32,465 bases of DNA from Bacillota bacterium. GTDB lineage: Bacteria; Bacillota; JADQBR01. The translations under genes and the position numbers were made by a program. The DNA is taken from assembly GCA_016278515.1 (NCBI GenBank), contig JADQBR010000013.1:1-32465 (forward strand), written 5' to 3'. Positions within the stretch are counted from its first letter, which is position 1; each line of letters opens with the position of its first letter. Below are positions 2,739 through 28,631 of this stretch, piece by piece. The notes beneath the pieces were generated by a model that saw only the letters and a list, made by a program, of their open reading frames with translations, did no database searches and was not told where the DNA came from.

Positions 2739-2740
2739 TA

Positions 2741-11094: not shown

Positions 11095-12270
11095 TTAAAA
11101 GCGTTCTACTATTTTGCCTTCCCTAATGGTTAATGACATCGGCAAAGCTTCGATCTGCCCGTTTTCGTCAAAAGTAATTGCTTTACCTCTGGGGCTATCA
11201 AATTCTCCGTTTCTGATAACTTCTGCTACTTTTTCGGCGTCAAGTGTGCCAGCTTTCTCTACGGCCTGCACATATACTTGGAAGGCATCCCAATTCTGTA
11301 GGTGCAACTTATTGGGCAACGTGCCATAGTTGTCTTGTACTGCCTTAACAAACTCCTGGTTAAAATCATTCTTAAAGGAAGGCACATAAATGTCCTCAAA
11401 CCATATATCTTCAATAGATTTTCCTGACATTTCGATTAAGTTTTCGTCAACTCCCCCACCCATAACTAATTTAGCTGCTTCCAGTTGGTAATTGTCCATT
11501 TCTCTAAGAAAAGCAGCTGTAGCGGGAGGAGAACTCAGAATGATGGCTACTGCGTCCGGTTCAAGTGACTTTATATTAGCAACTTGAACAGCAAAATTAC
11601 TTTCTGAAGCTTCAACCTGCTCTGTTGCCACAATTTCAACACCATATTTGGGCAATTCTTCCTGAAATAATCCTGTTAAGTACTGCCCATAATCCAATTT
11701 ATCGGCAATAATCGCTACTTTTTGGGCTTTTATGTTTTTCACTACATCTTCAACAAATGCCATTCCATCTTGTCTTTGTGTTGTGTTAACCCTAAATAGG
11801 AGCGGATGGCCTTTGAGGGTAACATCCGGGTGTTTTGCACCAGGAACAATATGCACAATTTTAGCTTCTCTGGTAATCTCTTTAACGGCCAATGTTGGCG
11901 TACTGAAACTTCCACCAATTATTGCGTCAACTTTATCTTGGTTAATAAATTTTTTAAAAGCTGTAACTGATGTCTCTGCGTTTCCTTTACTGTCTGCAAA
12001 AATCACCTCTACAGGTCTACCTAACAACCCTCCATTATCATTCACCTTATCAACAACAAGTTGAGCTGCCTCTTGAGCATACTGCCCCCATGGAGCAGCG
12101 TCCCCAGTTGCAGGTTGAATTAAACCAATCTTTATAGGTTCTACTTTATCACCTGATTGAGAACCATCAGAAGATGAAGAACCGCCTTGGCCTTGGGTCC
12201 CTCCACAACCGGCAAGCGCTAAAACTACAATTAACAAAACTCCAGTAAATCCTATCCCTTTAAACTTCAC
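11095..12270 (-). CDS. ABC transporter substrate-binding lipoprotein, LivK/branched-chain amino acid type
   Basis: This is a 391-residue periplasmic-binding-protein type I lipoprotein (Peripla_BP_6). A signal peptide with lipobox LALAGC puts the lipid-modified Cys at residue 22, followed by a Gly/Ser/Gln linker. The mature part starts EPIKIGLIQPATGDAAPWG and has the two-lobe fold with ADSKGNAETSV and VVDKVNDNGGLLGRPVEV. GTG 12270 is the start, with GGGGGAG seven bases upstream. It would capture the substrate for the LivHMGF complex. Homologues bind amino acids but also aromatic and other carboxylates, which fits this catabolic setting. It is separated from the permease genes by the flavoenzyme gene and has its own promoter and terminator, allowing high expression. 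Confidence 0.88.
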   Translation of the reverse strand: MKFKGIGFTGVLLIVVLALAGCGGTQGQGGSSSSDGSQSGDKVEPIKIGLIQPATGDAAPWGQYAQEAAQLVVDKVNDNGGLLGRPVEVIFADSKGNAETSVTAFKKFINQDKVDAIIGGSFSTPTLAVKEITREAKIVHIVPGAKHPDVTLKGHPLLFRVNTTQRQDGMAFVEDVVKNIKAQKVAIIADKLDYGQYLTGLFQEELPKYGVEIVATEQVEASESNFAVQVANIKSLEPDAVAIILSSPPATAAFLREMDNYQLEAAKLVMGGGVDENLIEMSGKSIEDIWFEDIYVPSFKNDFNQEFVKAVQDNYGTLPNKLHLQNWDAFQVYVQAVEKAGTLDAEKVAEVIRNGEFDSPRGKAITFDENGQIEALPMSLTIREGKIVERF

Positions 12271-12407: not shown

Positions 12408-14348
12408 TTATTCTTGAGAAGCCATTTCTAATTTTCTAATTGCGAAATAACCTTGTTGAACAGCATCCGCAATGTTACCGGGATTGTAGCAGCTACCAAT
12501 ACATATGAAATGTTTTTTGCCATGGCTACTAAGTAAACTTCTGTTAGAATTAAACCCCCTGGCATAAATAAAATAGTCCAATTGCAGCTTTATTATCTGA
12601 TTTGTCTGATGGTCCTTCAGTACTGCTTCACCAGTTTCGACATTCAAAACTTCATGTTTGAACTTGAACAATACCTCTAAATCTTCTAATTTTTTAATCA
12701 GCGATGCTCTATAAAGTGGATTTAAGTTTGTACCTAGCTCATTCTTAGGGGACCTGCTAATAACAACCACTTCATTGTCATTTGAGGCTGCCAAAAGGGC
12801 CGCTTCTAAGCCACTCCCTCTTGCCCCATAAACCACTATTTTACGATGAGTCAATTGAGGACTCTGTCTAATAAAACTGCTAATGTCAGCGCAGCAATCA
12901 ATATCTATACCTGCAATGTTTGGAATTACAGGCAACCCTCCTGTTGCTACTACTACCCTTTCTTCTTTTAACATAGCCAAGCTATCTATTTTATGGTTAA
13001 GCTCAACATTAATATTCAGACGTCCAACAGTGTCAAGAAGATAATTCCTAAACCATTGCCATTTATCCTTACCTGGTACTGATGCCACAACATCCAACAT
13101 CCCCCCTAAGTGTTCTTCTTGCTCATATAGGGAAACTTGGAACCCATTCTTAGCAAAGTTAATTGCAGCAACCATACCCGAAGGTCCGCCACCTACCACG
13201 GCAATGGAAGAATTACGATTGAGTCCGGTAACAAAAATCTCATTACCTTTACGACCTAACTCTGGATTAATTGCACATCTTAAACCTTTATGCTCAACTA
13301 AGTGTTGTGAGCAAAATCCACAAGAAACACATTTTCTAATCGGCATTTGCAGCATCACCTTGCGTGGCCACGTAGGCTCGCTCAAAAAATTTCTTCCAAC
13401 AGCAATAAAATCTGCTTTTTTCTGAGACAAAATTTGTTCCGCCATACCCGGGTCTCGAATAACACCCACCGCTATAGTCGGAATATTTAGTTTCTCTTTT
13501 ATCTTTTCAGCTAAAGGAACTCTCCAAGCTTCAGGCGCCCAAACAGTATCAACGTTTTTGTCAAGTGTCTCATGAATACCAGTGGTAATATGAAGCGCAT
13601 CAGCACCAATTTCCTGAAATACCCTAGCAAATTTCGTACTTTCGGGTATATCGAGCCCACCGTGTACAAATTCTTTAACACTCATTCGCACAATCACTGG
13701 AAATTGCGATCCAACTGAAGACTTGATACCGTTAATAATTTCAACAACAATTCTTGCCCTGTTTTCTAAAGATCCACCATATTGGTCGGTTCGTTTATTC
13801 GTATAAGGAGAAATGAACTGATTTAATAAATATCCATGAGCAGCATGTAACTCAACTCCGTCATAGCCAGCTATTTTTGCCCTATAACTAGCTTTAATAA
13901 AGCTTTCTATAATATGCTTAATCTCTTCGATAACCAAGACCCTTGGTCGTGACTTCATCAATTTTCAAGGAATTTCCGACGGAGCCACCACTTGAACCCC
14001 TTTTGTAATACTCTGTGTTGTCTGTCTCCCGGCATGTGCCAATTGGGCAAAGGCTTTGCAATCATAACTATGAATACTTTCAACTAATGCAGCGTGCCCA
14101 CTTATATAGGCATTATTATCAATACGTAACTGCAATGGGCTCATATTACCCTCGGGGCTTTTGACGCTGCTAGCCTCTACAATTATTCCACCCGCTCCAC
14201 CCCTTGCTCTAATCGAATAATACCTCAATATAGCCTCAGTTACTTCACCATTTATTCCAGCATAATTTGTCTCCATTGGCGCCATAAAAATTCTGTTTTT
14301 GATTGTAATCTTCCCTAATGTACCTTCGGAGTATAAAGTCTCGTACAT
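12408..14348 (-). CDS. FadH / 2-enoate reductase-like flavoenzyme with in-frame TGA (candidate selenoprotein or nonsense pseudogene)
   Basis: One frame of 647 codons contains a single internal TGA (13965-13967, codon 128). The N-terminal OYE-type TIM barrel reads KNRIFMAPM, ..HGYLLNQFISPYTN and TTGIHETL (tyrosine and histidine of the enoyl-reductase site). A 4Fe-4S motif C-x2-C-x2-C-x11-C (CVSCGFC) follows, then FAD and NAD(P) Rossmann domains (AVVGGGPSGM). The FMN/FeS/FAD architecture and length match 2,4-dienoyl-CoA reductases, 2-enoate reductases and BaiCD/BaiH enzymes. The ATG at 14348 follows GAGGG. The TGA replaces the residue after SEIP; 23 bases later a hairpin with GGU loop resembles a bacterial SECIS. 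If TGA is read as selenocysteine the product is full length; otherwise the gene is dead. Confidence 0.75.
13933..13947 (-). promoter_or_regulatory. Candidate bacterial SECIS hairpin
   Basis: On the minus strand ACCAAG-GGT-CTTGGT forms a perfect 6-bp stem with a three-base loop starting with G. A flanking G-T wobble could extend it. The loop begins 24 bases after the in-frame TGA. Known bacterial SECIS elements have a G-starting apical loop roughly 16-37 bases after UGA, and the E. coli fdhF loop is GGUCU; here the same GGUCU string occurs. The hairpin could be coincidental. Confidence 0.45.
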
Positions 14349-14607
14349 CAATATCCCTCTTTCTATAATAGAGTCAGAAATTCGGTGTCTTAAGGTAAAG
14401 GTGCTCCAAAAAAAACATTAAAAAGAAGAAAAATAACATCGCAAAAAGCCTTGAAGTATCATGTTCACCCCAACCAAAAACCACTGGAAAAGAATGCTTT
14501 GCAGCGTATTGATAGTAACTTACATTGTAGCTTTAATGTCACAAATACTATCTTGACAGAGGGCCCGCTTTTTTATACTTTTTACGATTAAGCCTTATAC
14601 AGATTTG

Positions 14608-15471
14608 TTAGTCAGAAGTTTTACCAAATAACCCAGTCGGTTTCCAAATTAAAATAGCAATCAAAATAATGTATCCCACTACATCTTTCCAACCACTACC
14701 AAAAAATGTAGCGGTAATAACCTCTGCACTGCCTAATAATAAACCGCCAATAACTGCACCACTTATACTCCCCAAGCCTCCCAAAACAACAACGATAAAT
14801 CCCTTTATAATAGCGGTAGAGCCCATGGTAGGATAGAGGTTTATTAATGGTGCCAGGAGTATGCCGCTGAGCGCAGCTAACCCCCCAGCAATTCCAAATG
14901 CATACATATATGTCCTACTACTATTTATTCCCACCAGTGAAGCAGCAGTCACATTCTGTGACGTAGCTCTAAGAATCTTTCCGATTTTAGTACTTTTAAT
15001 TACTAAATTCAGTGCAAGGATAACAGCAATACCACAAACTATAATAAGGATCTTTTGTTGGGTCAAAATGAGCCCTTTGACTTCAATGGGAATTTCAAAG
15101 GGACTTGGCAGTCTTTTCGGATTAGCACCGAAAACATACTGTATTAGATTGGCTAAAATAATACTAAGTGCAAAACTACTTAAAAAGGGAGACATATAAT
15201 CCCGATTCAGTATAGGCCCAATTGCTACTCTTTCCAAAACAAAAGAAATAATAACAACTAGCCCAACAGCAATTAACCCTCCCCAAACGTAGGACAAACC
15301 ATAAGCTTTAGTTAAGAACATAGTTATGTATGCTCCTATCATATAGAGCTCTCCATGGGCAAAGTTCAAAACTCCCATAATGCCAAATATTAGTGATAGA
15401 CCGCTGGCTACTAATCCATAGGTCATACCAAGCACGACGCCATTAAATAATTGTTGTAATAAAAGATCCAC
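14608..15471 (-). CDS. livH: Branched-chain amino acid-type ABC permease LivH
   Basis: This 287-residue inner-membrane permease has about eight hydrophobic helices. It carries the LivH hallmarks GLVASGLSLIFGIMGVLNFAHG near the N terminus and IKGFIVVVLGGLGSISGAVIGG near the C terminus. It pairs with LivM to form the channel driven by LivG and LivF. GTG 15471 is the start, preceded by GAGGAGG at proper distance. It is the last gene of the LivM-LivG-LivF-LivH run, 30 bases after LivF. This order is unusual, since liv operons often run K-H-M-G-F. Downstream lies a 256-base gap, with no clear terminator, before the flavoenzyme. Confidence 0.9.
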   Translation of the reverse strand: MDLLLQQLFNGVVLGMTYGLVASGLSLIFGIMGVLNFAHGELYMIGAYITMFLTKAYGLSYVWGGLIAVGLVVIISFVLERVAIGPILNRDYMSPFLSSFALSIILANLIQYVFGANPKRLPSPFEIPIEVKGLILTQQKILIIVCGIAVILALNLVIKSTKIGKILRATSQNVTAASLVGINSSRTYMYAFGIAGGLAALSGILLAPLINLYPTMGSTAIIKGFIVVVLGGLGSISGAVIGGLLLGSAEVITATFFGSGWKDVVGYIILIAILIWKPTGLFGKTSD

Positions 15472-15501
15472 CGACTAAACCTCCTCGCTTTGCTGGGTCA
15501 A

Positions 15502-16206
15502 TCATCCCCCCAAGTATGCCTTTAAAACATGTCCATCTTGGAGCAATTCCTGACTTTCCCCTGACAAGGTTATTTGCCCGTTTTCAAGTACATAGGCTCT
15601 ATCAGCCAATTGAAGAGCCATGTAAGCATTCTGCTCGACCAATACTATGGTCATGCCTTTTCGATGTAAGTTATTAATTACTTCCCCAAGTTTCTCGACT
15701 ACAATAGGTGCCAACCCTAGAGAAGGTTCATCGAAAAGAATTAGGTCAGGTTCGGACATCAATCCCCTACCAATCGCTACCATTTGTTGCTCGCCACCGC
15801 TCAAGGTTTTTGCTTTCTGTTTTGCTCTTTCCTTTAAAGCAGGAAAAAGTTCATAAATTTCTGACATATTTTCTTTTACATTTTTATAATTATTTAAAAC
15901 CAGCCCTCCAAGCTCTAAGTTTTCTGCCACAGTCATCTCTGGAAATAGCTGCCTGCCCTCAGGAATATGAGCAATACCGGCATTGGTTATTTGAGGTGCA
16001 GGTTTACCTCCTACTTCTTTACAATTAAGGAGTATTGATCCTGCTTTAGGTTTAACTAAACCAGAAATCGCCCGTAATAGAGTAGATTTTCCTGCACCAT
16101 TAGCACCAATAATGGCTATTATTTCCCCAGGGTATACCCTTAAATTTATTTCTTTTAAAGCTGTAATCTTACCATAGTTAACCATAAGATCTTTTATCAC
16201 TAACAT
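15502..16206 (-). CDS. livF: Branched-chain amino acid-type ABC ATPase LivF
   Basis: This 234-residue ATPase has Walker A GANGAGKST, signature LSGGEQQMVAIGRG, Walker B LILFDEPSLGL and the LivF C-terminal VLENGQITLSGES. It energises the LivHM channel with LivG. ATG 16206 is preferred because GGAGG is eight bases upstream; an alternative TTG two codons earlier is too close to that site. It follows LivG after 18 bases. All nucleotide-binding residues are intact, so the transporter is probably functional. Confidence 0.92.
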   Translation of the reverse strand: MLVIKDLMVNYGKITALKEINLRVYPGEIIAIIGANGAGKSTLLRAISGLVKPKAGSILLNCKEVGGKPAPQITNAGIAHIPEGRQLFPEMTVAENLELGGLVLNNYKNVKENMSEIYELFPALKERAKQKAKTLSGGEQQMVAIGRGLMSEPDLILFDEPSLGLAPIVVEKLGEVINNLHRKGMTIVLVEQNAYMALQLADRAYVLENGQITLSGESQELLQDGHVLKAYLGG

Positions 16207-16224
16207 AAGCAAATCCTCCTGTAG

Positions 16225-17010
16225 TTAATGGCTGTTATGTTGATGATTTGTCCCTAGATATACCTCTACTACCTTTGAGTGTTCTTTAATAGTATTTGGA
16301 GGCCCTTCGGCAATTTTTTGGCCATGGTTTAATACTACTATGTTTTCGCAAAGGCTCATTACAAATTTCAAATCGTGCTCCACTAACAAAATAGTAATAC
16401 CAAAATCCTTCTGGATTTTTTTTAAGATACTGGCCATCTGCATTGTTTCCTTGTTGTTTAGTCCTGCAGCAGGTTCGTCTAACAATAGCAATTGGGGTCG
16501 TGTAGCTAAAGCTATTGCGAGACCCAATTTTTTTTGATTACCATAGGATAAATTTGAAGCCCTAGTCGAACTTAAATGTTCCATCTCACAGTACCGTAAA
16601 GTTTGATAGGTTAATTTTTTTAATTCATCTTCATTATTTCTGAAGTTTTTTGTTTTCCATATTGAATCCCATAAATTGTATCGATTCAACAAAAACGTAC
16701 CTGTTAAGACGTTATCAAAAACAGTTAAATGAGAAAACATATTTGTTTGTTGGAACGTTCTTACTAGATGCATTTTCGCAATAGTTTCAGGAGCAGTTCC
16801 TGTAATGTCTGTTTCGTTAAATATTACTTTGCCACTGGTTGGGCTTAAAAAGCCAGTAATTATATTGAATAATGTAGTTTTACCTGCACCGTTTGGCCCA
16901 ATCAATCCGCATATTTGACCTTCAAAAACCCTGAAATTAACATCATCTACAGCTCTTAATCCAGCAAAATATTTAGTCGCTTGGCTAATTTCTAACAGTA
17001 ACTTTGCCAT
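16225..17010 (-). CDS. livG: Branched-chain amino acid-type ABC ATPase LivG
   Basis: This 261-residue ATPase has Walker A GPNGAGKTT, signature LSYGNQKKLGLAIAL, Walker B LLLLDEPAAGLN and the H-loop VEHDLKFV. The long insert between Walker A and the signature is normal for LivG. Its ATG lies inside the 3' end of livM (26-base overlap) behind GGGGAG, implying translational coupling. It partners LivF on the cytoplasmic face of the LivHM channel. Confidence 0.92.
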   Translation of the reverse strand: MAKLLLEISQATKYFAGLRAVDDVNFRVFEGQICGLIGPNGAGKTTLFNIITGFLSPTSGKVIFNETDITGTAPETIAKMHLVRTFQQTNMFSHLTVFDNVLTGTFLLNRYNLWDSIWKTKNFRNNEDELKKLTYQTLRYCEMEHLSSTRASNLSYGNQKKLGLAIALATRPQLLLLDEPAAGLNNKETMQMASILKKIQKDFGITILLVEHDLKFVMSLCENIVVLNHGQKIAEGPPNTIKEHSKVVEVYLGTNHQHNSH

Positions 17011-17977
17011 TCTTTATCTCCCCATTTTTAACAAAAAATTTATCTCTAATCTGACCTAACTTACTAGCTATTCCATCAGGCATATAGATTATGGACATTA
17101 ATAGGAGGAGGCCAAATATGACCATTTTCATTTCCGGTTTAAAACCCAAAAATTCTGGAAGTACAAAGAACAATGCCGCGCCAATAAAAGCACCCAATAG
17201 AGTCCCTTTGCCTCCAACAATTACGATTATTAAAGGCAGTGAAACGTAGTGAAGACTAAAAATCCTTGGACCAATAGCACTTATATAATGACCATATAAC
17301 GACCCACTTATAGCAGCTATTATGGCCGAAATAACCAAAGCTATTTTCTTATATTTACACGTGTCTATTCCAATTGATCTAGCTAGGTCTTCGCCTTCAC
17401 GAATGGCAAGAAATGCTCGCCCAAGACCGGAATTTACTACTCGATACAGACTTAAAGTAACCAAAATAACAAAAGCTATTACGATAAAAAGATAAGATTG
17501 TTCACTTTTAAAAGCTATTTTCTCAAAAATTAAGTTAATTTCTGGAGGTGGTATAGAAGCAATACCTGCTGCCCCATTTGTAACTGTTTCCCACTCAACA
17601 ACTAAAAAACGGAACACTTGTGTGATAGCAAAAGATACTATGGCAAAATATATTCCTTTCAGTTTCCTCAGGGTTAAACTCCCAATCAGAAACGCGACCA
17701 CGGCCGTTATTCCCACAGCGATTAAAAGTCCTAACCAATAACTTAGATGTAGTTTTAAAGTCATTATCGCCGAAGCATAGGCACCAAGTCCAAAGAACGA
17801 TGCATGACCAAAAGAAATAATTCCCGTATATCCCAGCAGTAAATCTAGACTAAGAGCATAGATTACGAAAATGCAATATATGATTAAAACATCGCCATAG
17901 TAAGGGTTTGAAATTATAAGGGGTATACTAAAGAGACTCAGAAAAGACAATGCTTTAATCAAATTGGTTTTATTCAC
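16985..17977 (-). CDS. livM: Branched-chain amino acid-type ABC permease LivM
   Basis: This roughly 330-residue polytopic permease has the family core YALSLDLLLGYTGIISFGHASFFGLGAYAS and the AIREGEDLARSIGI cytoplasmic loop that contacts the ATPase. GTG 17977 is chosen as start: GAGGAG lies eight bases upstream, and the first residues VNKTNLIKAL lead straight into the first membrane helix. The longer frame to 18079 would overlap the acyl-CoA dehydrogenase gene and adds a non-family extension. It is 28 bases downstream of that dehydrogenase, so import and oxidation genes share a transcript. Confidence 0.88.
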   Translation of the reverse strand: MNKTNLIKALSFLSLFSIPLIISNPYYGDVLIIYCIFVIYALSLDLLLGYTGIISFGHASFFGLGAYASAIMTLKLHLSYWLGLLIAVGITAVVAFLIGSLTLRKLKGIYFAIVSFAITQVFRFLVVEWETVTNGAAGIASIPPPEINLIFEKIAFKSEQSYLFIVIAFVILVTLSLYRVVNSGLGRAFLAIREGEDLARSIGIDTCKYKKIALVISAIIAAISGSLYGHYISAIGPRIFSLHYVSLPLIIVIVGGKGTLLGAFIGAALFFVLPEFLGFKPEMKMVIFGLLLLMSIIYMPDGIASKLGQIRDKFFVKNGEIKNGKVTVRN

Positions 17978-18005
17978 ATTATCAACTCCTCGATGAAGAC
18001 TCCTT

Positions 18006-19160
18006 TTATGCTTGATCTTGATACTCTTTGGCCAGTTCACGGGATATAACCATTTGTTGAATTTCTGAAGTTCCTTCATACAAAGTTAGCACACGAACAT
18101 CTCTATAAATCCTTTCTACAGGATAGCCTTTTAAGTAACCTCTTCCCCCAAAAATCTGAACAGCATCATAAGCAACTTTATTTGCTATTTCAGTCGCATA
18201 GTATTTCGCCATGGAACACTCTTTTACAGGCGTCATCCCTTGATCAATTTTTGCAGCTGCATCAAACATTATAAGCCTAGCTGCATGTGTTTGAGTTGCC
18301 ATTTTAGCGATTTTAAATTGTATCCCCTGATAGTTAAAAATCGGTCTGCCAAACTGTTCTCTTTTTTCAGAGAAAGTTATACTTTCCTCCAGGGCAGCTT
18401 GGGCAACTCCTACAGCCTGCGCTGCAACTGATACTCTTGCAAGATTTAATGTTTCTAGTGCTATTTTAAACCCCTCTCCCTCCTTTCCTAATAAATTCTC
18501 TTTCGGAACCTCACAATTATTAAAGAATAATTCCCCCGTTCTCTGTCCGTTTAAACCCATTTTAGAGTATATTGATCCAATTTCAAACCCAGGTGTTCCT
18601 TTTTCTACAATAAAGGCCGAAATGCCCCTAGCACCTTTACTTACATCTGTCTTTGCAAAAACGATATAAATGTCTGATTCGCCTGCATTACCAATGAAAA
18701 TCTTGTGTCCATTAATTATATATCTGTCGTTCTTAAGTACAGCAGTTGCTTCAATAGAAGCGACATCTGAACCGGACTGCGGTTCAGTCAATCCAAACGA
18801 TGTAGCTTTTCGGCCGGCTGCAATTAGGGGTAGATAAGTACGCTTCTGAGTTTCGTTACCGGCAATTAAGAACGGGGATGAACCTAAATGATAAATACTA
18901 GTCACCGCCGAAGTAGATAAACAACCCCTTGATATTTCTTCAACTGCAATACACAATGTCACATAATCCTTTAAATTACCTCCATATTCTTCGGGAATAG
19001 TGAGACCCGTGACACCAAAGTCAACTAAGGCCTTGAGTCCGTCTATAGGGTATTCCCCTGTTCGATCAATTTGTTCGGCTTTTGGTGCAATTTCCTTTTC
19101 TACCAACGCTCTCAATCTGTCCCTAAACTCAATCTGCTTTTTTGATAATTGAAACTCCAT
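18006..19160 (-). CDS. Acyl-CoA dehydrogenase (operon with CoA ligase and Liv transporter)
   Basis: This is a 384-residue acyl-CoA dehydrogenase. It has FGLTEPQSGSDVA at the FAD/substrate site, an AGESDIYIVFAK beta-domain, and the C-terminal LYEGTSEIQQ with catalytic Glu362. Its ATG shares one base with the ligase stop (TAATG), so expression is coupled to acid activation. It probably oxidises the acyl-CoA formed by that ligase. It is similar in style to the 8.5 kb paralogue. Reduced flavin needs ETF encoded elsewhere. Confidence 0.9.
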   Translation of the reverse strand: MEFQLSKKQIEFRDRLRALVEKEIAPKAEQIDRTGEYPIDGLKALVDFGVTGLTIPEEYGGNLKDYVTLCIAVEEISRGCLSTSAVTSIYHLGSSPFLIAGNETQKRTYLPLIAAGRKATSFGLTEPQSGSDVASIEATAVLKNDRYIINGHKIFIGNAGESDIYIVFAKTDVSKGARGISAFIVEKGTPGFEIGSIYSKMGLNGQRTGELFFNNCEVPKENLLGKEGEGFKIALETLNLARVSVAAQAVGVAQAALEESITFSEKREQFGRPIFNYQGIQFKIAKMATQTHAARLIMFDAAAKIDQGMTPVKECSMAKYYATEIANKVAYDAVQIFGGRGYLKGYPVERIYRDVRVLTLYEGTSEIQQMVISRELAKEYQDQA

Positions 19161-20827
19161 TATAAATCACCTTCCTTAACATTATGATTATTTTTCAACT
19201 TGATTTTAGCTAGCTTTTGAAGTTCTACTTTTGAAAGTTTATTGCCATGTGGTCCCTCAACCTTCGGTAGTTTTTCTATGATTTCAACATAACGCGGAAT
19301 TTTAAAACTTGCTACTTTACCCCTACAATACTCAAATATTTCTCTCTGGGATACAAGTTGTCCATCTCTCAGTTTTATAAATGCCATTCCAGTTTGCCCC
19401 GTTTGAGGATGAGGAACTCCAACTACCCCTACTTCCTCAATTGCTGAGTGCGTCAGTAGGAACTCTTCAACTTCCCTGGGAGTAACATTAAACCCATTTG
19501 ATTTGTACATTTCTTTTAATCGCCCTACAAAATTAACTAATCCTTGGTCATCGATAAAACCTAAATCACCTGTATGGAACCACCCGTCATCCATAACTTT
19601 ACTTGTTTCCTCAGGGCCATTATAATATCCCGAAAACAAAGTATAGCCTTTAGCACATATTTCGCCAGTTTCACCATATTTGACTTCATTCCAACTTACA
19701 GGGTCAACAATTTTAACGTGTATATTAGGCATTGGTTTTCCACCCGCGACCCTTTTCCGGTCTGCAACAGGCTCATTAACCCCAAGCATCAAATAACATG
19801 CATTAAGTTCAGTCATACCTAGGGCTTGCGTCGCTTGTTCAACCTTGAGATCCTCAATAACCCTATCCATGAGTGCCGGTATCGACCCAAAATTAGCTAC
19901 CATAGCTTTTTTTAAAGAAAATATATCAAACAAATGACGTTGAGGGTAATCTGCCATAGCTTCAAACATTACGTCTACTCCGTGCATAAGAGTAATACGT
20001 TCCCTTTCTATTAGACTATAAATTATCTCTACATCAAAGTAATCTTGGATAACCACGCAAGCCCCGTGCAGTAAAGTACTTGGGATAATAGTCGAACACC
20101 CCCATGCTCCACAGAATGGAATTACTCCTAGCACCTTATCACCTGGTTGCATTAACGTGGCATTACCTACATCATACGCATGTTGAAGAACATTATCAGG
20201 TGTTCTCATCGCTCCTTTCGGATTTCCTGTTGTACCTGAAGTAAATAAGAGATACATGGTCTCATCAGCATCCGTATCTTCAATTCTTTGGTATAGAATC
20301 GAGCCAGAAACATTCTGACCACTTATGATACATTTTTCTAATGTTTGATGAACTTCCCTTTCATTTCTTACAAATATAACTTCCCGTAGTGTTGGCACGG
20401 TGGTAGCGTTACTTACTTGACCGTTAACTACATTAGGACAAAGTTTCTCAATGATACCATAGTAATCTGCTTTCATAAACTTATCTGTAGTAAAAAGAAT
20501 TTCTATACCTGCTTGATTTATGATATATTTTAAGTCGAAACTCTTATATCTAGTATTCAGTGGAACCAGAACTGCACCTATTTGGGTTATTGCTAATTGC
20601 AAAATAATCCACTCAGGGTAATTAGGTAACCATATACCTACTTTAGTCCCTTTGTTTACACCTAGATTTATCAGCCCTTTGGAAATAGCGTTAGCTTTTT
20701 CCTTTAAATCATTATACCTATAACGCTCACTACCGTAGATCATAACTTCTCTACCGCCATACTCATTAATCAATTCTTCTAGGACTTGACCAACTGTTTT
20801 ATGCCTAAAGGTTTTGTCACTTTTCAA
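19160..20827 (-). CDS. AMP-forming acyl-CoA synthetase (FadD-like, ANL superfamily)
   Basis: This roughly 555-residue ligase makes acyl-adenylate then acyl-CoA, activating the imported acid. The P-loop motif is YLLFTSGTTGNPKGAM. The hinge and C-terminal domain show GDLGFIDDQGLVNFVGRLKEM and the catalytic lysine region near the C terminus (KVEGPHGNKLSK). TTG 20827 is chosen as start because GGGGGA lies eight bases upstream; the frame continues to a TTG at 20872 without a ribosome site. The stop overlaps the dehydrogenase ATG. Medium/long-chain or branched acids are likely substrates, but the acid pocket cannot be read reliably. Confidence 0.88.
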   Translation of the reverse strand: MKSDKTFRHKTVGQVLEELINEYGGREVMIYGSERYRYNDLKEKANAISKGLINLGVNKGTKVGIWLPNYPEWIILQLAITQIGAVLVPLNTRYKSFDLKYIINQAGIEILFTTDKFMKADYYGIIEKLCPNVVNGQVSNATTVPTLREVIFVRNEREVHQTLEKCIISGQNVSGSILYQRIEDTDADETMYLLFTSGTTGNPKGAMRTPDNVLQHAYDVGNATLMQPGDKVLGVIPFCGAWGCSTIIPSTLLHGACVVIQDYFDVEIIYSLIERERITLMHGVDVMFEAMADYPQRHLFDIFSLKKAMVANFGSIPALMDRVIEDLKVEQATQALGMTELNACYLMLGVNEPVADRKRVAGGKPMPNIHVKIVDPVSWNEVKYGETGEICAKGYTLFSGYYNGPEETSKVMDDGWFHTGDLGFIDDQGLVNFVGRLKEMYKSNGFNVTPREVEEFLLTHSAIEEVGVVGVPHPQTGQTGMAFIKLRDGQLVSQREIFEYCRGKVASFKIPRYVEIIEKLPKVEGPHGNKLSKVELQKLAKIKLKNNHNVKEGDL

Positions 20828-20988
20828 AACTAGTCCCCCTTTTTTGTGTTTTTCCTTTATGTCACGTAGCAAACAACTTTATTCATACAATTAGTTTACC
20901 TACATTTAGAAAAGGTCAAAAGAGTATAGTAATCATATTTTTCGGTTTATTTCAGAACTCTTGGAAATTGTTTCTGCAATTTTAAACA

Positions 20989-22125
20989 TTAGTTAAGGTT
21001 TTCATAAATAGTTGCAGTTGCCATCCCGTGTGCGATACACATTGTTTGCAAACCATATTTCCACCCATTTTGGCGCATTTCATGAATCAGAGTCGTGGCA
21101 ATTCGGGCGCCACTTGCTCCAGTAGGATGTCCCAAAGCGATAGCACCTCCACGAGGATTGACTTTGCTCATCTTACACTCCATTTCTTTGTTCCATGCTA
21201 AGACAACGGAAGCGAAAGCTTCATTGATCTCAACAACATTGATATTATCTAGAGACAATCCAGTTTTATTGAGTGCTTTAGATGTAGCATCAATTGGACC
21301 AGTTAACATTAAGGTTTGATCTGATCCGACAACAACACGGGCTTTTATTGAAGCTAATGGCTTAATCCCCAGTGACTTAGCTTTTTCAGGACTCATCAGA
21401 AGTAATGCTGATGCACCATCACTTATCTGACTTGATGAGCCTGCAGTAACGACTCCATTCTCCTTAAACGGAGTTTCTAACTGAGATAATTTTTGTAAGC
21501 TGGTGTTATGCCGGATACCTTCATCTTTACTAAACAACGTCCCATCGGGTAATCTTACAGGAATAATTTCAGATTTAAAGTAACCTTTCTCACTTGCATT
21601 CCCTGCTAGTTGATGACTCCTCAGGGAAAACTCATCAAGCTGCTCCCTAGTTAACGCCCATTTCTCGGAAATCAATTCTGCCGCCACCCCCTGATGGGGT
21701 ATTTTACATCTACTCAACAAGTCCTCTGTATTTGGGGCTCTATCAGAGCCTATCGGAACACGACTCATACTTTCTACCCCTGCTGCAACAACCACATCAG
21801 CATCACCTGCTAAAATGGCTTGGGCTGCGAAATGAATTGCCTGTTGACTAGAACCACACTTTCTATTCAAAACGGTAGCCGGTACAGTGGCTGGTATTTC
21901 AGCCAATAACGCCGAAATTCTAGCAATATTATTTCCTTGTTCACCCGTTTGTGTAACACACCCTACAATAATATCCTCTATAATATGAGGCTCGATTCCA
22001 GATCGCTTTACTAGGTCTTGGAGTACCTGATTTAAAAGTTCATCAGGAGGCAAAACGCTTAAAATTCCGTTTCTCCTGCCAACGGGTGTTCTCACAGCCT
22101 CGACCACATAAACCTCTTTTTCCAT
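20989..22125 (-). CDS. Thiolase-family acyltransferase (second paralogue)
   Basis: This 378-residue thiolase has nucleophile Cys90 (NRKCGSSQQ), NEAFASV, His333 in GHPTGASG and Cys363 in MCIAHGMATAT. The C-terminal cysteine loop, CIAHGM, differs from the CxGGG form of the 5.2 kb paralogue and resembles FadA/PaaJ-like or steroid-thiolase variants. The protein is about 14 residues shorter around the lid region, hinting at a different acyl specificity. It lies 15 bases after the enoyl-CoA hydratase gene, with AGGAG before the ATG. A 116-base gap precedes the ligase gene. Confidence 0.88.
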   Translation of the reverse strand: MEKEVYVVEAVRTPVGRRNGILSVLPPDELLNQVLQDLVKRSGIEPHIIEDIIVGCVTQTGEQGNNIARISALLAEIPATVPATVLNRKCGSSQQAIHFAAQAILAGDADVVVAAGVESMSRVPIGSDRAPNTEDLLSRCKIPHQGVAAELISEKWALTREQLDEFSLRSHQLAGNASEKGYFKSEIIPVRLPDGTLFSKDEGIRHNTSLQKLSQLETPFKENGVVTAGSSSQISDGASALLLMSPEKAKSLGIKPLASIKARVVVGSDQTLMLTGPIDATSKALNKTGLSLDNINVVEINEAFASVVLAWNKEMECKMSKVNPRGGAIALGHPTGASGARIATTLIHEMRQNGWKYGLQTMCIAHGMATATIYENLN

Positions 22126-22140
22126 TTTTGTGTTTCACTC

Positions 22141-22920
22141 CTATTTGCCTTTAAATTTGGGACTTCTCTTTTCAAGAAATGAAGACACCCCTTCTTGCTT
22201 ATCTTCAGTAACGAATAATACAGTTTGAGCAAGCTTTTCTAAATTCAATCCACTGGCTAAGTTAACATCTAAGCTTTGGTTAATCAAAGCTTTTGCTAGC
22301 TGCAATGCCAATGGGCCTTTATTACCCATAGTATCAGCCATTTCATTGGCTTTTTGTTCCAAACTTGCCTTGTCAGGTAACACTTCACTAATTAATCCAA
22401 TAGATTTAGCTTCAACAGCATCAATTATCTTACCAGTTAAAATAAGTTCCTTTGCCTTTCCCAATCCAACCACCCGCGCTAAACGCTGGGTTCCCCCACC
22501 ACCGGGGATTATTCCTAGGTTAAGTTCTGGAAAACCGAATTTAGCATTTTCTGATGCTATTCTAATATCACATGCTAAAGCTAATTCGCACCCACCTCCT
22601 AACGCAAACCCATTTATAGCAGCAATTATTGGTTTCTTAAAATTTTCCAGCTGACTCAATATCTCTACGGCTGGGTTATTAAGGATATCCATCCATGTTC
22701 TTTCATTAAGAGATCTAATGTCTGCTCCAGATGCAAATGACTTTTCTCCAGATCCAGTAATAATTAATGTCTTAACCTCTTTGTCGTCTTCTATCTTCAA
22801 TAGAATTTGCGAAATTTCTGCCCAAGTCTTCGGATCTAGTGCATTTCTAACATTTTCCCTGGCAATTTCTAATATAGCTACTCCACCGTGATACTGTACA
22901 TTTAGATTATTAAACTCCAT
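22141..22920 (-). CDS. Enoyl-CoA hydratase (crotonase type)
   Basis: This 259-residue enoyl-CoA hydratase adds water to trans-2-enoyl-CoA. Oxyanion-hole segments are SFASGADIRSL and NGFALGGGCELALACD. Both catalytic glutamates are present: Glu112 in GGGCE and Glu132 in GFPELNLGIIPG. The C terminus, FLEKRSPKFKGK, is standard. ATG follows AAGGAGG. It lies 92 bases downstream of the racemase-like gene and heads the compact run hydratase-thiolase-ligase-dehydrogenase-transporter. Confidence 0.9.
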   Translation of the reverse strand: MEFNNLNVQYHGGVAILEIARENVRNALDPKTWAEISQILLKIEDDKEVKTLIITGSGEKSFASGADIRSLNERTWMDILNNPAVEILSQLENFKKPIIAAINGFALGGGCELALACDIRIASENAKFGFPELNLGIIPGGGGTQRLARVVGLGKAKELILTGKIIDAVEAKSIGLISEVLPDKASLEQKANEMADTMGNKGPLALQLAKALINQSLDVNLASGLNLEKLAQTVLFVTEDKQEGVSSFLEKRSPKFKGK

Positions 22921-23012
22921 AACACCTATCCTCCTTAGAAATTATTAATAATATTCAGATTATTTTTTAGCATTTTTCTTCTTATGTAGTCTGTTTAGAC
23001 GACCCTGAATTC

Positions 23013-24197
23013 CTAAATTATGTTATTTTCTTTCAGTTTAGAAATTTTATTACTGTCGAAACCTAGTTTTGTCAGAACTAGTTCTGTATGTTCCCCTAAT
23101 GAAGGTGCTGAATGTCGAAACTTTCCTGGGGTTTGAGATAACTTGATAGGAAACCCTACTTGTTTTACAGTCCCTAACTTTGGATGGGGAACTTCAAAGA
23201 ACATTTGTCTATGAGCTACTTGAGGGTCGGTTACAGTCTCTTCCAACCCAAGAACCGGAGCAAAACAGATGTCCTTAGAAAACAGTTGTTTTTCCCATTC
23301 CTTACGGGTTTTAGTTTTGAAAATGTCGGTCAATATCCTGATTAATTCGCTTTGTTTTTCAGGAGGATCATTTAGTCGGCCAATTAAATCAGAGCGTCCT
23401 ATTTTATTACAAAAATTCTCCCAAAATTTTTCTTCCAAGTTACCAATGCTAATATACTTATCGTCCTTTGTCTGGTAAACTTGGTAACAAGCAAGCCCTC
23501 CTGTAAGCTTAGATTTCCCACGTGCTGGCACCCCATTCTCCGAGAAAAGGTCTGCAACGATAGGGGTTAACCAGGAGATGACTCCATCTAACATTGAAAC
23601 GTCTATGTGTTGACCGAACCCATGTGCTTGGCGGGTAACCAGTCCACTTAATATACCTATTACCGCCATCATTCCTCCAGCCCCTAGATCGGCAACCTGT
23701 GTCCCAGGAATGATAGGCTCAGACCCCACTTTTCCATTATTATTTAAAAGGCCCCCAATACTTATATAATTAATATCGTGTCCTGGGATGCTAGAATAAG
23801 GACCGCTCTGCCCATACCCACTTATTGAACAATAGATAATATTTTCTTTAACTTTTTTTATTGTTTTGTAATCAACTTCTAGCTTTTCAACAACACCTGG
23901 GCGGAAACTTTCTATAATAACGTCTGCTCCTTGCGCCAACTGTTTAAAAACTTCTCTGCCTTCCACTGACTTAAGATTCAAACAAATACTTTTCTTATTA
24001 CGGTTTACAATTTCATGGAGATACGGAGAAGCCACCCTAACATAGTCCCCTTGTCTCGGTTCTTCAATCTTAATTACTTCTGCACCTAGATCCGCCAAAA
24101 ACATTGTACAATAGGGACCAGGCAATAATCTTGTCAGATCTAACACCTTTATACCTTCAAATGCAAAAACCAAGTGTACCACCCCATTGATATTCAT
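23013..24197 (-). CDS. Family III CoA-transferase fold, alpha-methylacyl-CoA racemase-like
   Basis: This roughly 394-residue CaiB/BaiF-fold protein has the N-terminal GIKVLDLTRLLPGPYCTMFLADLGAEVIKIE. Specific motifs point to the racemase branch: GHDINYISIGG (His140, Asp141), QVADLGAGG (Asp170) and IGNLEEKFW (Glu255). These align with the catalytic His126, Asp156 and Glu241 regions of alpha-methylacyl-CoA racemase (mycobacterial MCR numbering). It would epimerise 2-methylacyl-CoA so that a stereospecific dehydrogenase can act. A CoA-transferase role remains possible. The start is uncertain: ATG 24197 has a weak ribosome site, while TTG 24173 lies behind GGGGTGG. Confidence 0.78.
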   Translation of the reverse strand: MNINGVVHLVFAFEGIKVLDLTRLLPGPYCTMFLADLGAEVIKIEEPRQGDYVRVASPYLHEIVNRNKKSICLNLKSVEGREVFKQLAQGADVIIESFRPGVVEKLEVDYKTIKKVKENIIYCSISGYGQSGPYSSIPGHDINYISIGGLLNNNGKVGSEPIIPGTQVADLGAGGMMAVIGILSGLVTRQAHGFGQHIDVSMLDGVISWLTPIVADLFSENGVPARGKSKLTGGLACYQVYQTKDDKYISIGNLEEKFWENFCNKIGRSDLIGRLNDPPEKQSELIRILTDIFKTKTRKEWEKQLFSKDICFAPVLGLEETVTDPQVAHRQMFFEVPHPKLGTVKQVGFPIKLSQTPGKFRHSAPSLGEHTELVLTKLGFDSNKISKLKENNII

Positions 24198-24599
24198 TAG
24201 CCTTTATTAACTAAATACAATTCTCAATTTGATTGGTTTTGTAGAACCTTAAGAAAGCGTAAAAATGGACTTATTTTTCATAGTGGCCAAGTTTATAAAA
24301 AACTTTCCTTAGAGCTATCTGTTATCAACTTTATATAAAAGACTCATTTATTCGTTTCATGCCCACTCTGACTTACTCCAGACGAATCGTTGGGTTCTAA
24401 TTTTCCCTAGTTCCTTGATTTAATGCCCTCGGATTTAATTGCCATGTTTACCGTAAAAGATTTATATTGAGTTCTGATGAAACATATAATGGAGTCTTTA
24501 CCCAATATCCACTACTGATCCATATATCTCATTTGTTATATAATACTTAGCCCCTTTTCCAAAAATTGTTCCCAAAGTAACCGCATGGTTTGATTAAAA
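24198..24599. other. Intergenic gap, no gene recognised
   Basis: This 402-base AT-rich gap lies between the racemase-like and hydroxyacyl-CoA dehydrogenase genes. It has no long open frame on either strand. Short minus-strand frames near 24490-24590 give protein-like strings but match no family I know. No convincing terminator or promoter was found. Confidence 0.5.
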
Positions 24600-25499
24600 C
24601 TATTTATCGCATTTTTGTTCTCCATAATCGTAAAATCCTTTACCGACTTTTCTTCCTAGTAATCCCGCATCCACCATTCGCTCAACGGTTTGCGAAGGTT
24701 TAAAACGTTCCCCGTATGTTTGTTCTAGAGATTTAAGTGCTCGCACCCCTGTATCTAACCCCGCGAAATCCCCCAATTGGAAAGGACCCATCGGATGATT
24801 AAACGCTAATCTCATTGCTTTATCTATATCCTCTGCTGTCGCTATACCTTCCTCCAAAATCCTGTACGCTTCTGCTCTTTGTATCGCTGTTAGTCTAGTA
24901 GTAATAAATCCTTGGGTATCTTTTTTGCATATAACTACTTGCTTACCAAATGTTTCATTAACTTTTATCGTTTTTTCTAATGTCTCATCACTTGTTTCTA
25001 ATCCTTTAATAATCTCTGCCAGTTTCATAATTACAACAGGATTAAAGTAATGCGTACCAATGACCCTTTCCCTATTCTTTGTGGTAGAAGCAATAGACGT
25101 TATGCTATACTGCGAAGTATTAGTAGCTAGGATCGTTTTTGGATCACAAATTTCATCTAGTTTTCTAAATGTTTCTTTTTTCAATTCCAAAATCTCTGGA
25201 ATTGCTTCACAAACATAATCTGCTTCCGCTACTGCCTTTTCAAAATCGTTTTCGTAAATAATATTCTCTAGTATTTTTTCGCTTTCTTCTCTGGCCACTT
25301 TTCCCTTTTTTTCAAATCTAGCCAAACTACCCTTGATTGTGATCTTACAATTTTCTAAAGCTTTTTGGTGAAAATCATAAACTTTAACCTTATAACCAGC
25401 TGTCGCAGCCACTTGCACTATCCCCGACCCCATTATTCCTGCTCCCAAGACAGTAACATTCTTAATAGCAGAAATTGAAGAACTCGCATTCCTTTCCAT
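24600..25499 (-). CDS. 3-hydroxyacyl-CoA dehydrogenase (second paralogue)
   Basis: This 299-residue Hbd/PaaH-type dehydrogenase has Rossmann motif GAGIMGSG at residues 19-26, GTHYFNPVVIMKL with the catalytic His, and NHPMGPFQLGDFAGLD, ending in GKGFYDYGEQKCDK. An N-terminal extension of about ten Ser-rich residues precedes the fold. ATG follows GGGGG at a longish 12-base spacing. It sits alone between two gaps of 402 and 879 bases. A palindrome 60-85 bases upstream may be an operator. Residues differ enough from the 7.3 kb paralogue to suggest another substrate. Confidence 0.88.
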   Translation of the reverse strand: MERNASSSISAIKNVTVLGAGIMGSGIVQVAATAGYKVKVYDFHQKALENCKITIKGSLARFEKKGKVAREESEKILENIIYENDFEKAVAEADYVCEAIPEILELKKETFRKLDEICDPKTILATNTSQYSITSIASTTKNRERVIGTHYFNPVVIMKLAEIIKGLETSDETLEKTIKVNETFGKQVVICKKDTQGFITTRLTAIQRAEAYRILEEGIATAEDIDKAMRLAFNHPMGPFQLGDFAGLDTGVRALKSLEQTYGERFKPSQTVERMVDAGLLGRKVGKGFYDYGEQKCDK

Positions 25500-25560
25500 C
25501 AGTACTTTACCCCCTATTCTAGTGAACCCTAACTTATATTAATACCGATAAATTGTTGCG

Positions 25561-25585
25561 TTAGCCGAAACTTTGTTTCGCCTAA
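25561..25585. promoter_or_regulatory. Palindrome upstream of the 3-hydroxyacyl-CoA dehydrogenase gene, candidate operator
   Basis: TTAGCCGAAAC-TTT-GTTTCGCCTAA has 11-bp arms with ten matches around a 3-base centre, 62 bases before the gene start. Its size and position suit a dimeric regulator, but it could also be a short hairpin. I did not find a second copy in the window. Confidence 0.35.
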
Positions 25586-26039
25586 TGTAAGTATTGCATG
25601 GTTCGTCATTTTATTAAAGTATAAAACGGTGTATGGGGAAATTTATATGGTAAACCGTCAATTCCCACAGATGAACAGTTGCGATTACCAAACCATTATT
25701 CCTAAATATTACATTATGGTTCATGCAAACGTAATAACAGCAACGATGGACCATTGCCTAACTCCTGATTGAAAAATTCTTTGCCAATTATGGAAACCTC
25801 AGATCTAATTGGTACCCCAACTCTAACTACGGTTATGTTATAACAAAAAGTTCAATTAAAAAATCCCAAGCTGTATAGCTATCCAGAAAAACCTTTTAGT
25901 TATCCATAGCTCCTAATGGTTTTTTTATTGCCTTTTTTGATGCTATTTGGAAAGGTTGCAACCATACTAATTATGCAATTTCCTCACACAATAATCTTAG
26001 GTTAAAATCCTTGTAAAAAAACTCCCTTTACTTACCTCC

Positions 26040-26240
26040 ATTGAAAATCAACACAGAATTTTCGCAGGAATAAAATAGACCAATATTTGGACCTGTACTA
26101 ACATTTGGATTAGATGGAATCTCACTAGGTTGTTGAGAAGTGGTAAAGAAAGAGCAGATATTATAAATACGTGGTTTCAAAACATACTTTTAAAGAGGTT
26201 AAGTTTAACCCAATTGCTGTATCCCCAAAGTGGCAGTTAT
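26040..26240 (+). pseudogene. ADP-forming acyl-CoA synthetase ATP-grasp remnant, second copy, opposite strand
   Basis: In the 879-base gap 25500-26378, the plus strand carries blocks NTEF..AGIK and RPIFGPVLTFGLDGI (about 26090-26123), then EVVKK and, after an internal deletion, FKEVKFNPIAVSPK (about 26185-26230). These correspond in order to the same ATP-grasp domain found decayed at 9.7-10.1 kb. Stops (TAG, TGA) and frame slips interrupt it. The 64-residue open frame starting at 26171 is only its tail. Apart from the palindrome near 25.57 kb, the rest of the gap shows no gene. Confidence 0.5.
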
Positions 26241-26378
26241 TAATTATTAATTATAATATCCTAGAGCTGGTTCTCGTTATTGTATATGGATACAGAACAA
26301 TTGTTATCCTTTTTTGCCTCAATTGTATCATTCTACTACGTGGAAACACTTACATTCAAAGGTGATTCTTTCTCATCT

Positions 26379-27542
26379 TTACTTTGCGCGCTGATTAAAT
26401 CTTCTCCCGATTAATGCAGAAGCAATGTTTATTCTCTGCATCTGCACTGTACCGCCGGCAACAGTCCAGCCTCGAGAATCTCTCAGCATACGCTCAATAG
26501 GATATTCCTTTGAATAACCATAGCCACCGTGCACCTGTAAAGCAAGGTCTGTGACCTCTTTGGCGATTTCGTTACAGAAACACTTTGCAATAGATGCATG
26601 TAATACTGATGGATAACCGTTGCTCGCTTCCGTTGCCGCGCGGTATAATAGCAATCGCGCCGCCTCGACTTTCATAGACATATCTGCTAGCATAAGTTGA
26701 ACCGCTTGAAATTCACATATCTCTTTACCAAACTGTTTCCGCTCAGTACTGTATTTAACGCTTTCTTCCAAAGCACCCTGGGCTATCCCCAAAGACATGG
26801 ATGCATTACCCAAGCGTTCAATATCAAAAGCCTGCATCAGGTTTTTAAAACCACCCTCAGGAATAACCAGATTTTCCTTCGGAACACGGCAATTTTCAAA
26901 AATCAAGTCGCTACTAGGGAAACCCCTCATCCCCATAAACTGCTCCTGTTTTCCAAAGGAAAAACCCTCTGTGCCTTTCTCAATAACCAAGGCACCAATT
27001 CCCTTAGCTCCCTTAGCATCACTTAACCGTACGTAAACCAAGTAGGCTTCATTGTGACCCCCACCGGTAACAAAGCGTTTCTCGCCATTAACAATATAAT
27101 GATCTCCGTCAAGAATCGCTCGGCTTTTTAAATCCGTTAGGCCTGAACCCGCCTCAGGCTCAGTCATGCCCACTGAAATCAGCATTTCACCTTTGCATAC
27201 TCTGGGAATGTATTTCTGCTTTTGTTCCTCGGTTCCAAAAAGCTGCAACACCCGAACGGGGCCGATTCCTGCTTCAAATACAGGAAATGCTGCCAGAGGG
27301 GATACTCGGGCGATTTCTTCCAATACCAATACAACTTCAAAAGCCGAAAGACCCTGACCACCATATTCTTCGGGCAGGCACAAGCCCATTAACCCCAGTT
27401 CCGCATACTTATTTATCAGTTCTTGTGACCAACACTCCTCATTCTCGTCCCAATCCTGTGCATTTGGTCGGATTTCTTTTTCAACGAAATCATGCACCAT
27501 TTCTTTTAGCATTCTTTGTTCATCAGTCAATTGAAAATTCAT
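26379..27542 (-). CDS. Acyl-CoA dehydrogenase family protein lacking the usual catalytic Glu
   Basis: This 387-residue acyl-CoA dehydrogenase has the normal fold motifs: LPEEYGGQGLS, VGMTEPEAGSGLTD and QVHGGYGYSKEYPIERMLRD. At the C terminus the YEGTSEIQ motif reads VAGGTVQMQ, so the position of the usual base (residue 363) is Gly. Some subfamilies use a glutamate elsewhere or have GGT here, so activity toward branched or unusual acyl-CoAs is possible. ATG follows AAGGGGAG. It lies directly downstream (41 bases) of the IclR regulator gene and is probably co-transcribed and controlled by it. Confidence 0.85.
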   Translation of the reverse strand: MNFQLTDEQRMLKEMVHDFVEKEIRPNAQDWDENEECWSQELINKYAELGLMGLCLPEEYGGQGLSAFEVVLVLEEIARVSPLAAFPVFEAGIGPVRVLQLFGTEEQKQKYIPRVCKGEMLISVGMTEPEAGSGLTDLKSRAILDGDHYIVNGEKRFVTGGGHNEAYLVYVRLSDAKGAKGIGALVIEKGTEGFSFGKQEQFMGMRGFPSSDLIFENCRVPKENLVIPEGGFKNLMQAFDIERLGNASMSLGIAQGALEESVKYSTERKQFGKEICEFQAVQLMLADMSMKVEAARLLLYRAATEASNGYPSVLHASIAKCFCNEIAKEVTDLALQVHGGYGYSKEYPIERMLRDSRGWTVAGGTVQMQRINIASALIGRRFNQRAK

Positions 27543-27583
27543 AAAAACTCCCCTTCGTAATATGTTTTGATACTACCACAGGA

Positions 27584-28375
27584 CTAATACTTTTTGTTTA
27601 TATTCTGTGGACGGTAGCCCAACTCTAAGGATATATCCTCCACCCCCCTCCGAAGTTCTTTTAGATACAACTCCTTTGTCTCTTTGCTATGCCGGGCTTC
27701 CGGGTAAGCAACAGATAAACCTGCGACCAGCTTTCCGGTATAATCAAATATTGGTACACTTATTGACACAGCCCCTACAATTCTCTCAGCAAAACTATAG
27801 GCATAACCTTCTTCACGAATATGTTCGATTTCCTTACGCAGATTCCCAACGTCTATAATTGTGTTATCTGTAATGTTCTTAATCGACGACTGCTTTAGAA
27901 CCCTGTCAACCTCATTATCATCCTGAAAAGCCAAAAGCAGTTTTGCGGACGCACCTGCATATAAAGGTGATCTTTGCCCTACCTTTACAACTGTTCTTAG
28001 ATCATGTATAGACTCTATTTCCTCCAAGCAAATTCTTTCATTACCTTCTTTTACATTTAAGTGAATGGTCTCCCCTGTAAGGCTTCTCAATCTTTCCATA
28101 ACCGGTATAGCCAGTTTTCGCAACTCCATTTGGTTTGATACCAAACTTCCAAGGTAAAAAAGCTTATTTCCTAAACGATATTTCTTATCAACATCATCAC
28201 GACTTAAAAAGCCAAATTCTTCTAATGTGTACGCTAGCCGCAGAACCGTTGCTTTCGATAACTCGGTCGCTTCTGCAATTTCTGTTAAAGTTAGGGAAAC
28301 CTGGTCCGCAGTGAACTGTTCCAAAATTTGAAGAGCCCGAACCACGGAGCGCACTGAATTGGGCTTATTACCCAT
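27584..28375 (-). CDS. IclR-family transcriptional regulator
   Basis: This is a 263-residue IclR regulator. The N-terminal winged helix-turn-helix is at about residues 8-70 (SVVRALQILEQF, LTEIAEATELSKATVLRLAYTLEEFGF). The C-terminal effector domain has GETIHLNVKEG, YAGASAKLLLAF and GAVSISVPIFD. It likely binds a pathway acid or CoA ester and controls the island; it is the only regulator gene in the window. The second of two adjacent ATGs (28375) is preferred, six bases after GGAGG. The 253-base region upstream has no gene, and no clear IclR operator was found by eye. Confidence 0.9.
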   Translation of the reverse strand: MGNKPNSVRSVVRALQILEQFTADQVSLTLTEIAEATELSKATVLRLAYTLEEFGFLSRDDVDKKYRLGNKLFYLGSLVSNQMELRKLAIPVMERLRSLTGETIHLNVKEGNERICLEEIESIHDLRTVVKVGQRSPLYAGASAKLLLAFQDDNEVDRVLKQSSIKNITDNTIIDVGNLRKEIEHIREEGYAYSFAERIVGAVSISVPIFDYTGKLVAGLSVAYPEARHSKETKELYLKELRRGVEDISLELGYRPQNINKKY

Positions 28376-28631
28376 CATTATCCTCCTTTAGATGTTCTAT
28401 ATAGTGGAAATCAGTTTTTGGTGGTTATAATTAAATTACATTATCAGTCCTGGTAAAGATTGGCGATGATGAATTTTCCGATAGATGCAAGGATTTAACC
28501 TACCTAATGCCTATCAACTCTACTACCTATCACCCTCATCTTTAGTTTAAAATAATCAAAAAATTTACTAAAATACAAAGCCGTATGAAAATACCTAAAG
28601 TAATCTTAGAAGACCAAATAATCATCATTTA

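Follow-up and report, generated by a model that had tools for sequence, protein, structure and literature searches.

A gene for a flavin-dependent ene-reductase from a Bacillota bacterium very probably represents a new selenoprotein family, in which the UGA at codon 128 would be read as selenocysteine (Sec). The gene lies in a stretch of 32,465 nucleotides (contig JADQBR010000013.1 of assembly GCA_016278515.1), referred to here as the window. What we observe directly is the reading frame with its TGA, a hairpin, Sec genes in the host, a Cys column in the homologues and conservation on either side of the TGA, and from these we infer the decoding. The first-pass annotation of the window had read the gene as a candidate selenoprotein; the Sec genes and the Cys column support this reading, and none of the findings which it had named as counting against it was made.

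An ene-reductase frame with a single internal TGA

The frame runs on the minus strand from ATG 14348, which is preceded by AGAGGG, to TAA 12410-12408, and its sole internal stop is the TGA of codon 128. This confirmed the single in-frame TGA reported earlier in an otherwise open frame, with a length of 646 codons counted from ATG 14348 (residue numbers in part of the analyses count from a TTG one codon before this ATG and are higher by one). The 518 codons 3' of the TGA contain no further stop or frameshift. The product matched the Old Yellow Enzyme (OYE) barrel PF00724 with 255.7 bits, followed by a pyridine nucleotide-disulfide domain, and with the barrel, the four cluster cysteines, the FAD domain and the fold all present it belongs to the FadH / 2-enoate reductase / 2-naphthoyl-CoA reductase superfamily (FMN/4Fe-4S/FAD ene-reductases). 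AlphaFold, with C substituted for U, modelled the full length with confidence (mean pLDDT 92.4), the best structural matches being 2-naphthoyl-CoA reductase (NCR, 6QKG; TMq 0.93) and E. coli FadH (1PS9; TMq 0.91). In this model residue 128, with strand 98-104 before it and helix 140-160 behind it, occupies the loop that follows barrel strand 3, which, judging by the fold, would face the substrate.

Table 1. Features of the candidate gene, its surroundings in the window and the selD genes of the host
Feature	Position	Strand	Remarks
Candidate selenoprotein CDS	12408..14348	-	646 codons + TAA; PF00724 barrel, 4Fe-4S site, FAD + NAD(P)-type domain; fold like 6QKG, 1PS9
In-frame TGA, candidate Sec codon, codon 128	13965..13967	-	aligns with Cys in 28/44 homologues
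SECIS-like hairpin GACCAAG-GGU-CUUGGUU	13932..13948	-	7 bp; loop 23 nt after TGA
ATG start and upstream AGAGGG-like ribosome-binding site	14346..14360	-	read from sequence
Four 4Fe-4S Cys codons (340, 343, 346, 358), Cx2Cx2Cx11C	13275..13331	-	invariant in homologues
Branched-chain-type ABC transporter substrate-binding protein, next gene downstream	11095..12270	-	domain searches
ABC transporter permeases, upstream	14608-15471, 16985-18079 (block 14608..18079)	-	domain searches
ABC transporter ATPases, upstream	15502-16212, 16225-17010	-	domain searches
Beta-oxidation-type cluster, uninterrupted genes	18006..29408	-	contents given in the text
selD genes, two, diverged	C93:13497-14414 and C162:15647-16564		TGA at Sec site in both

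Selenocysteine genes of the host

Judged by its gene content, the host genome (4.27 Mb, draft, 167 contigs) is one that decodes UGA as Sec. On contig 99 selA-selB is followed by tRNA-Sec (71 bits), and each of two selD genes has a TGA near the N terminus, where Sec is usually found, so that selA, selB, selC and selD, whose absence would have counted against the Sec reading, were all found. FdhA and a second molybdopterin oxidoreductase (MopB2) carry TGA in the context AR(L/I)UHS. The presence of two selD copies in one genome is unusual, and selD1 is without a hairpin of the standard model.

The TGA column in the homologues

That members of the family often carry Cys near codon 128 had been stated in the first-pass annotation, and the alignment bore it out: of the 44 homologues, 28 have Cys at the TGA column, 7 have Asp and the remainder have other residues. 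In a tree built without this column the query stood beside a clade of ten, all with Cys (support 94), although its place is not firm because of its long branch (1.77). Cys is found in 30% or more of the homologues only at the TGA column, at the positions of the four cluster cysteines and at a column occupied by Leu in the query. By a simple weighting of codon counts in which transitions were counted double, a random TGA-creating change would fall on codon 128 about once in 79, and of the nonsense paths about one in four leads to TGA. The homologues' Cys codons at this column are TGT or TGC, one base from TGA.

The hairpin 3' of the TGA

The stem with a GGU loop that had been described earlier is present and has 7 bp, but its spacing was worded slightly off, as the stem begins 16 nt after the TGA and it is the loop that lies at 23 nt. 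The local hairpin energy is -6.0 kcal/mol. PMC13188914 quotes a bacterial SECIS model with a loop of 3-9 nt, a stem of 4-16 bp, a G within the first two loop positions, a spacing of 16-37 nt and MFE <= -7.5, and with a constrained MFE of -8.3 the region falls within it. Unconstrained folding of the whole region gave a different fold of -9.9, with z -0.98 against shuffles and hence no signal. Under the loose whole-window bSECIS model 11-18% of the codons of neighbouring genes scored equally, so that the published thresholds combined with a whole-window fold are too loose to discriminate; the host's own selD1 and selD2 fall short of these thresholds. An Rfam search of the window gave no match.

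Comparisons of the local hairpin, all made after it had been seen and hence not blind, were more selective. A G[GU]-loop hairpin of equal stability follows 1.3% of the codons in the window's genes, 0.34% of synonymous recodings of the same peptide (n=5,000) formed an equally stable hairpin, and a comparable hairpin occurred at the matching site in 0 of 56 sense-codon homologues. The same recoding test gave 1.0-1.6% for the host's selD2, MopB2 and C_GCAxxG genes, while FdhA (28%) and a thioredoxin-like gene (17%) did not stand out and selD1 had no hairpin. The loops after the TGA in other genes of the host read GGUCU (FdhA, MopB2) and GGUC (C_GCAxxG) at a spacing of 18-20, and GGC at a spacing of 17 (selD2); the candidate's spacing of 23 exceeds these values but stays within the published limits. 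Where the family consensus reads PREL, the hairpin region of the query encodes Val in place of the Glu present in 37 of 44 homologues, a change that constraint on the codons by the RNA would lead one to expect.

Conservation after the TGA and the nucleotide-binding motif

Ahead of the TGA the identity with homologues averages 43%, and beyond it, over residues 130-235, it averages 50%; both values are at least as high as in comparable pairs, and this conservation of the barrel indicates that decay from an old nonsense mutation has not set in here. Divergence is above the usual level in the last 145 residues (identity of 22% versus 30.5 +- 3.6%). The part downstream of the TGA had been described as intact, and this holds for the open frame, the four cluster cysteines and the FAD domain but not for the NAD motif: the NAD(P)-binding GxGxxG reads GxRxxG, and two further near-invariant acidic residues are lost (Glu531 and Asp619, both replaced by Ser). 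In the alignment NCR is likewise without Gly at the first degenerate site, so GxGxxG is not required for the FMN/4Fe-4S/FAD ene-reductase superfamily. From this degenerate motif, the electron donor may be one other than NAD(P)H.

Interrupted genes elsewhere in the genome

We read 1.62 Mb of the host genome for frames with a single interrupting stop, normal gene junctions excluded, and inspected the resulting list by eye, short flanks lying outside its coverage. The other TGA-broken non-mobile genes in it encode the two molybdopterin enzymes (FdhA and MopB2), a C_GCAxxG_C_C protein and a thioredoxin-like lipoprotein, all of them plausible selenoproteins by family; on this evidence, a TGA that interrupts a metabolic gene of this genome is more often Sec than decay. 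The C_GCAxxG_C_C protein (C24:69933, L118) is split-Soret-cytochrome-like, has its TGA in GGUANALY followed by a strong GGUC-loop hairpin, and is probably another selenoprotein. The lipoprotein (C5:16819, L139), with the motif UGRC and a weak hairpin, is likewise a probable one.

The remaining breaks, TAA or TAG, appear, as judged by a look at the sequences, to lie mostly in transposase or reverse transcriptase genes, together with a DUF4007 gene of the window; a possible membrane-protein frame (C10:15040, L144) is broken by a single TAG with 346 and 122 open codons on either side. Other genes near the candidate had been said to carry nonsense changes. One such change was found, a TAG at 2424-2426 in the frame of the DUF4007 (PF13182) gene (1875-2828, minus strand), but it stands beside transposition genes (605-1713), near the end of the contig amid mobile-element genes and outside the metabolic cluster. 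A pyrrolysine reading of this TAG was rejected, and it looks like a true nonsense codon because no PylS scored above cut-off in the genome. Fragments of an IS91-type transposase (Zn_Tnp_IS91, Y2_Tnp) lie at 29867-30698 on the plus strand.

Search for further TGA copies

No TGA homologue was found among 398 genomes of the phylum. A TGA pattern scanned against about 85,000 genomes gave four matches, none coding for a relative; the pattern would catch only about 16 of the 28 Cys homologues. A related-locus search with the single protein as query found no relatives. Stop-flagged homologues were rejected as TGA forms, as three (L016, L024, L031) have terminal stops only, one (G081) has Cys present, and one (G058) is a shorter relative with its stop at another site. 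No close strain with a sense codon and without the hairpin, which had been proposed as counter-evidence, was found in these searches, and the distant sense-codon homologues are without the hairpin, as expected. With no second TGA copy found, this is a single-genome Sec form on present data; TGA homologues elsewhere are a filter in selenoprotein predictions and not a requirement for a selenoprotein. The selenoprotein catalogue of May 2026, with 119 families, has no PF00724 or 2-enoate reductase entry, its nearest flavin enzymes being a Sec CoA-disulfide reductase and a type III sulfide quinone reductase (PMC13188914). Our literature search returned nothing relevant linking Sec to PF00724, enoate reductase or dienoyl-CoA reductase. 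If the Sec reading is true, this would be the first selenium version of the enzyme family.

Alternative explanations

We argued that if the gene were a young pseudogene, in which a TGT or TGC codon had recently mutated to TGA with the hairpin there by chance, the single TGA copy in the genome searches, the long branch with its lost invariant residues in the C-terminal domain and the true TAG nonsense codon in the DUF4007 gene of the same window would all be accommodated. The TGA, however, falls on the conserved Cys column and the hairpin occurs in no sense-codon homologue, the codons downstream are free of any other stop or frameshift, the barrel after the TGA is conserved, and the other TGA breaks in non-mobile host genes are in plausible selenoproteins; taken together these make the pseudogene quite improbable. 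A Cys codon misread in sequencing or assembly would need a change of one base, given the homologues' TGT or TGC, and the assembly is a draft of 167 contigs, but an error at exactly this codon in the sole hairpin-bearing copy is hard to credit and would still leave the hairpin to be explained, so we give it hardly any weight.

Just as little probability attaches to a split enzyme, made as two proteins by stopping at the TGA and restarting at the ATG three codons later (TGAAAATTGATG). Although this ATG closely follows the TGA, no good ribosome site precedes it, in agreement with what had been noted for the restart earlier; the break would fall inside the barrel, behind strand 3, the homologues are single chains, and the Cys column would be left unexplained.

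Proposed decoding, function and setting

According to the favoured Sec reading, SelB carrying Sec-tRNA(Sec) would recognise the hairpin with the GGU loop a short way 3' of the UGA, and codon 128 would be decoded as Sec, giving a full-length FMN/4Fe-4S/FAD ene-reductase with Sec where most relatives carry Cys. The Sec would lie at or near the active site, and the enzyme would reduce the double bond of an acyl-CoA or enoate within the surrounding beta-oxidation-type cluster. The gene stands in a long same-strand run of transporter and CoA genes in which no other frame is interrupted, and the cluster at 18006..29408 holds acyl-CoA dehydrogenases, an acyl-CoA ligase, thiolase(s), enoyl-CoA hydratases, a family III CoA-transferase, a 3-hydroxyacyl-CoA dehydrogenase and an IclR regulator. 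This setting suggests breakdown of an acid via CoA thioesters, with the candidate enzyme removing a double bond. A bolder proposal, which we regard as speculative and rather unlikely, is a Se-dependent ene-/aryl-CoA reductase in which Sec128 would take part in the chemistry beside the flavin (as proton donor, covalent or redox partner) with a donor other than NAD(P)H, an undescribed kind of flavoenzyme; such a donor is hinted at by the degenerate nucleotide site.

Sec usually takes the place of a redox-active Cys, and the conserved, little-noticed Cys of the family is therefore probably functional if the Sec reading is true. Selenium would then enter the OYE / 2-enoate reductase family, whose members reduce double bonds of dienoyl-CoA, aryl-CoA, bile acids and bilirubin, and one family would be added to the 119 of PMC13188914. 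Standard annotation would label such a gene a pseudogene or two fragments.

Comparison with known systems

NCR (6QKG) and FadH (1PS9) share with the query the three-domain fold, the FMN barrel, the 4Fe-4S site and the FAD domain, but identity is about 25% and both are without Cys at the Sec column. Closer relatives within the phylum are 2-enoate reductase-like enzymes of the Cys type (L010, L052, L053, L057, L062), with 36-40% identity over the full length and Cys exactly at the TGA site of the query; they differ in having a TGT or TGC codon, no SECIS-like hairpin and an intact nucleotide-binding motif. The top named HMM families, all matching over the full length, are BaiCD (NF041087; 388 bits against a curated cut-off of 793), mycofactocin OYE 2 (TIGR03997; 361/825) and the long bilirubin reductase (NF045599; 338/750), and since these scores are below half of the cut-offs the query lies outside the three families. 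Among flavin selenoproteins, the Sec CoA-disulfide reductase (NADH oxidase) of Geobacter metallireducens (PMC13188914, PMC1794560) has a domain related to the C-terminal half of the query, but it is listed under TIGR03385 with the motif UGxP, has no OYE barrel, and carries its Sec in a different domain. Class III OYEs (YqjM, OYERo2a C25), in which an active-site Cys has been studied (PMC6194350), have the same barrel as the query; their Cys is in an N-terminal PMC motif, whereas the query has PMET there and its candidate Sec comes about 100 residues later.
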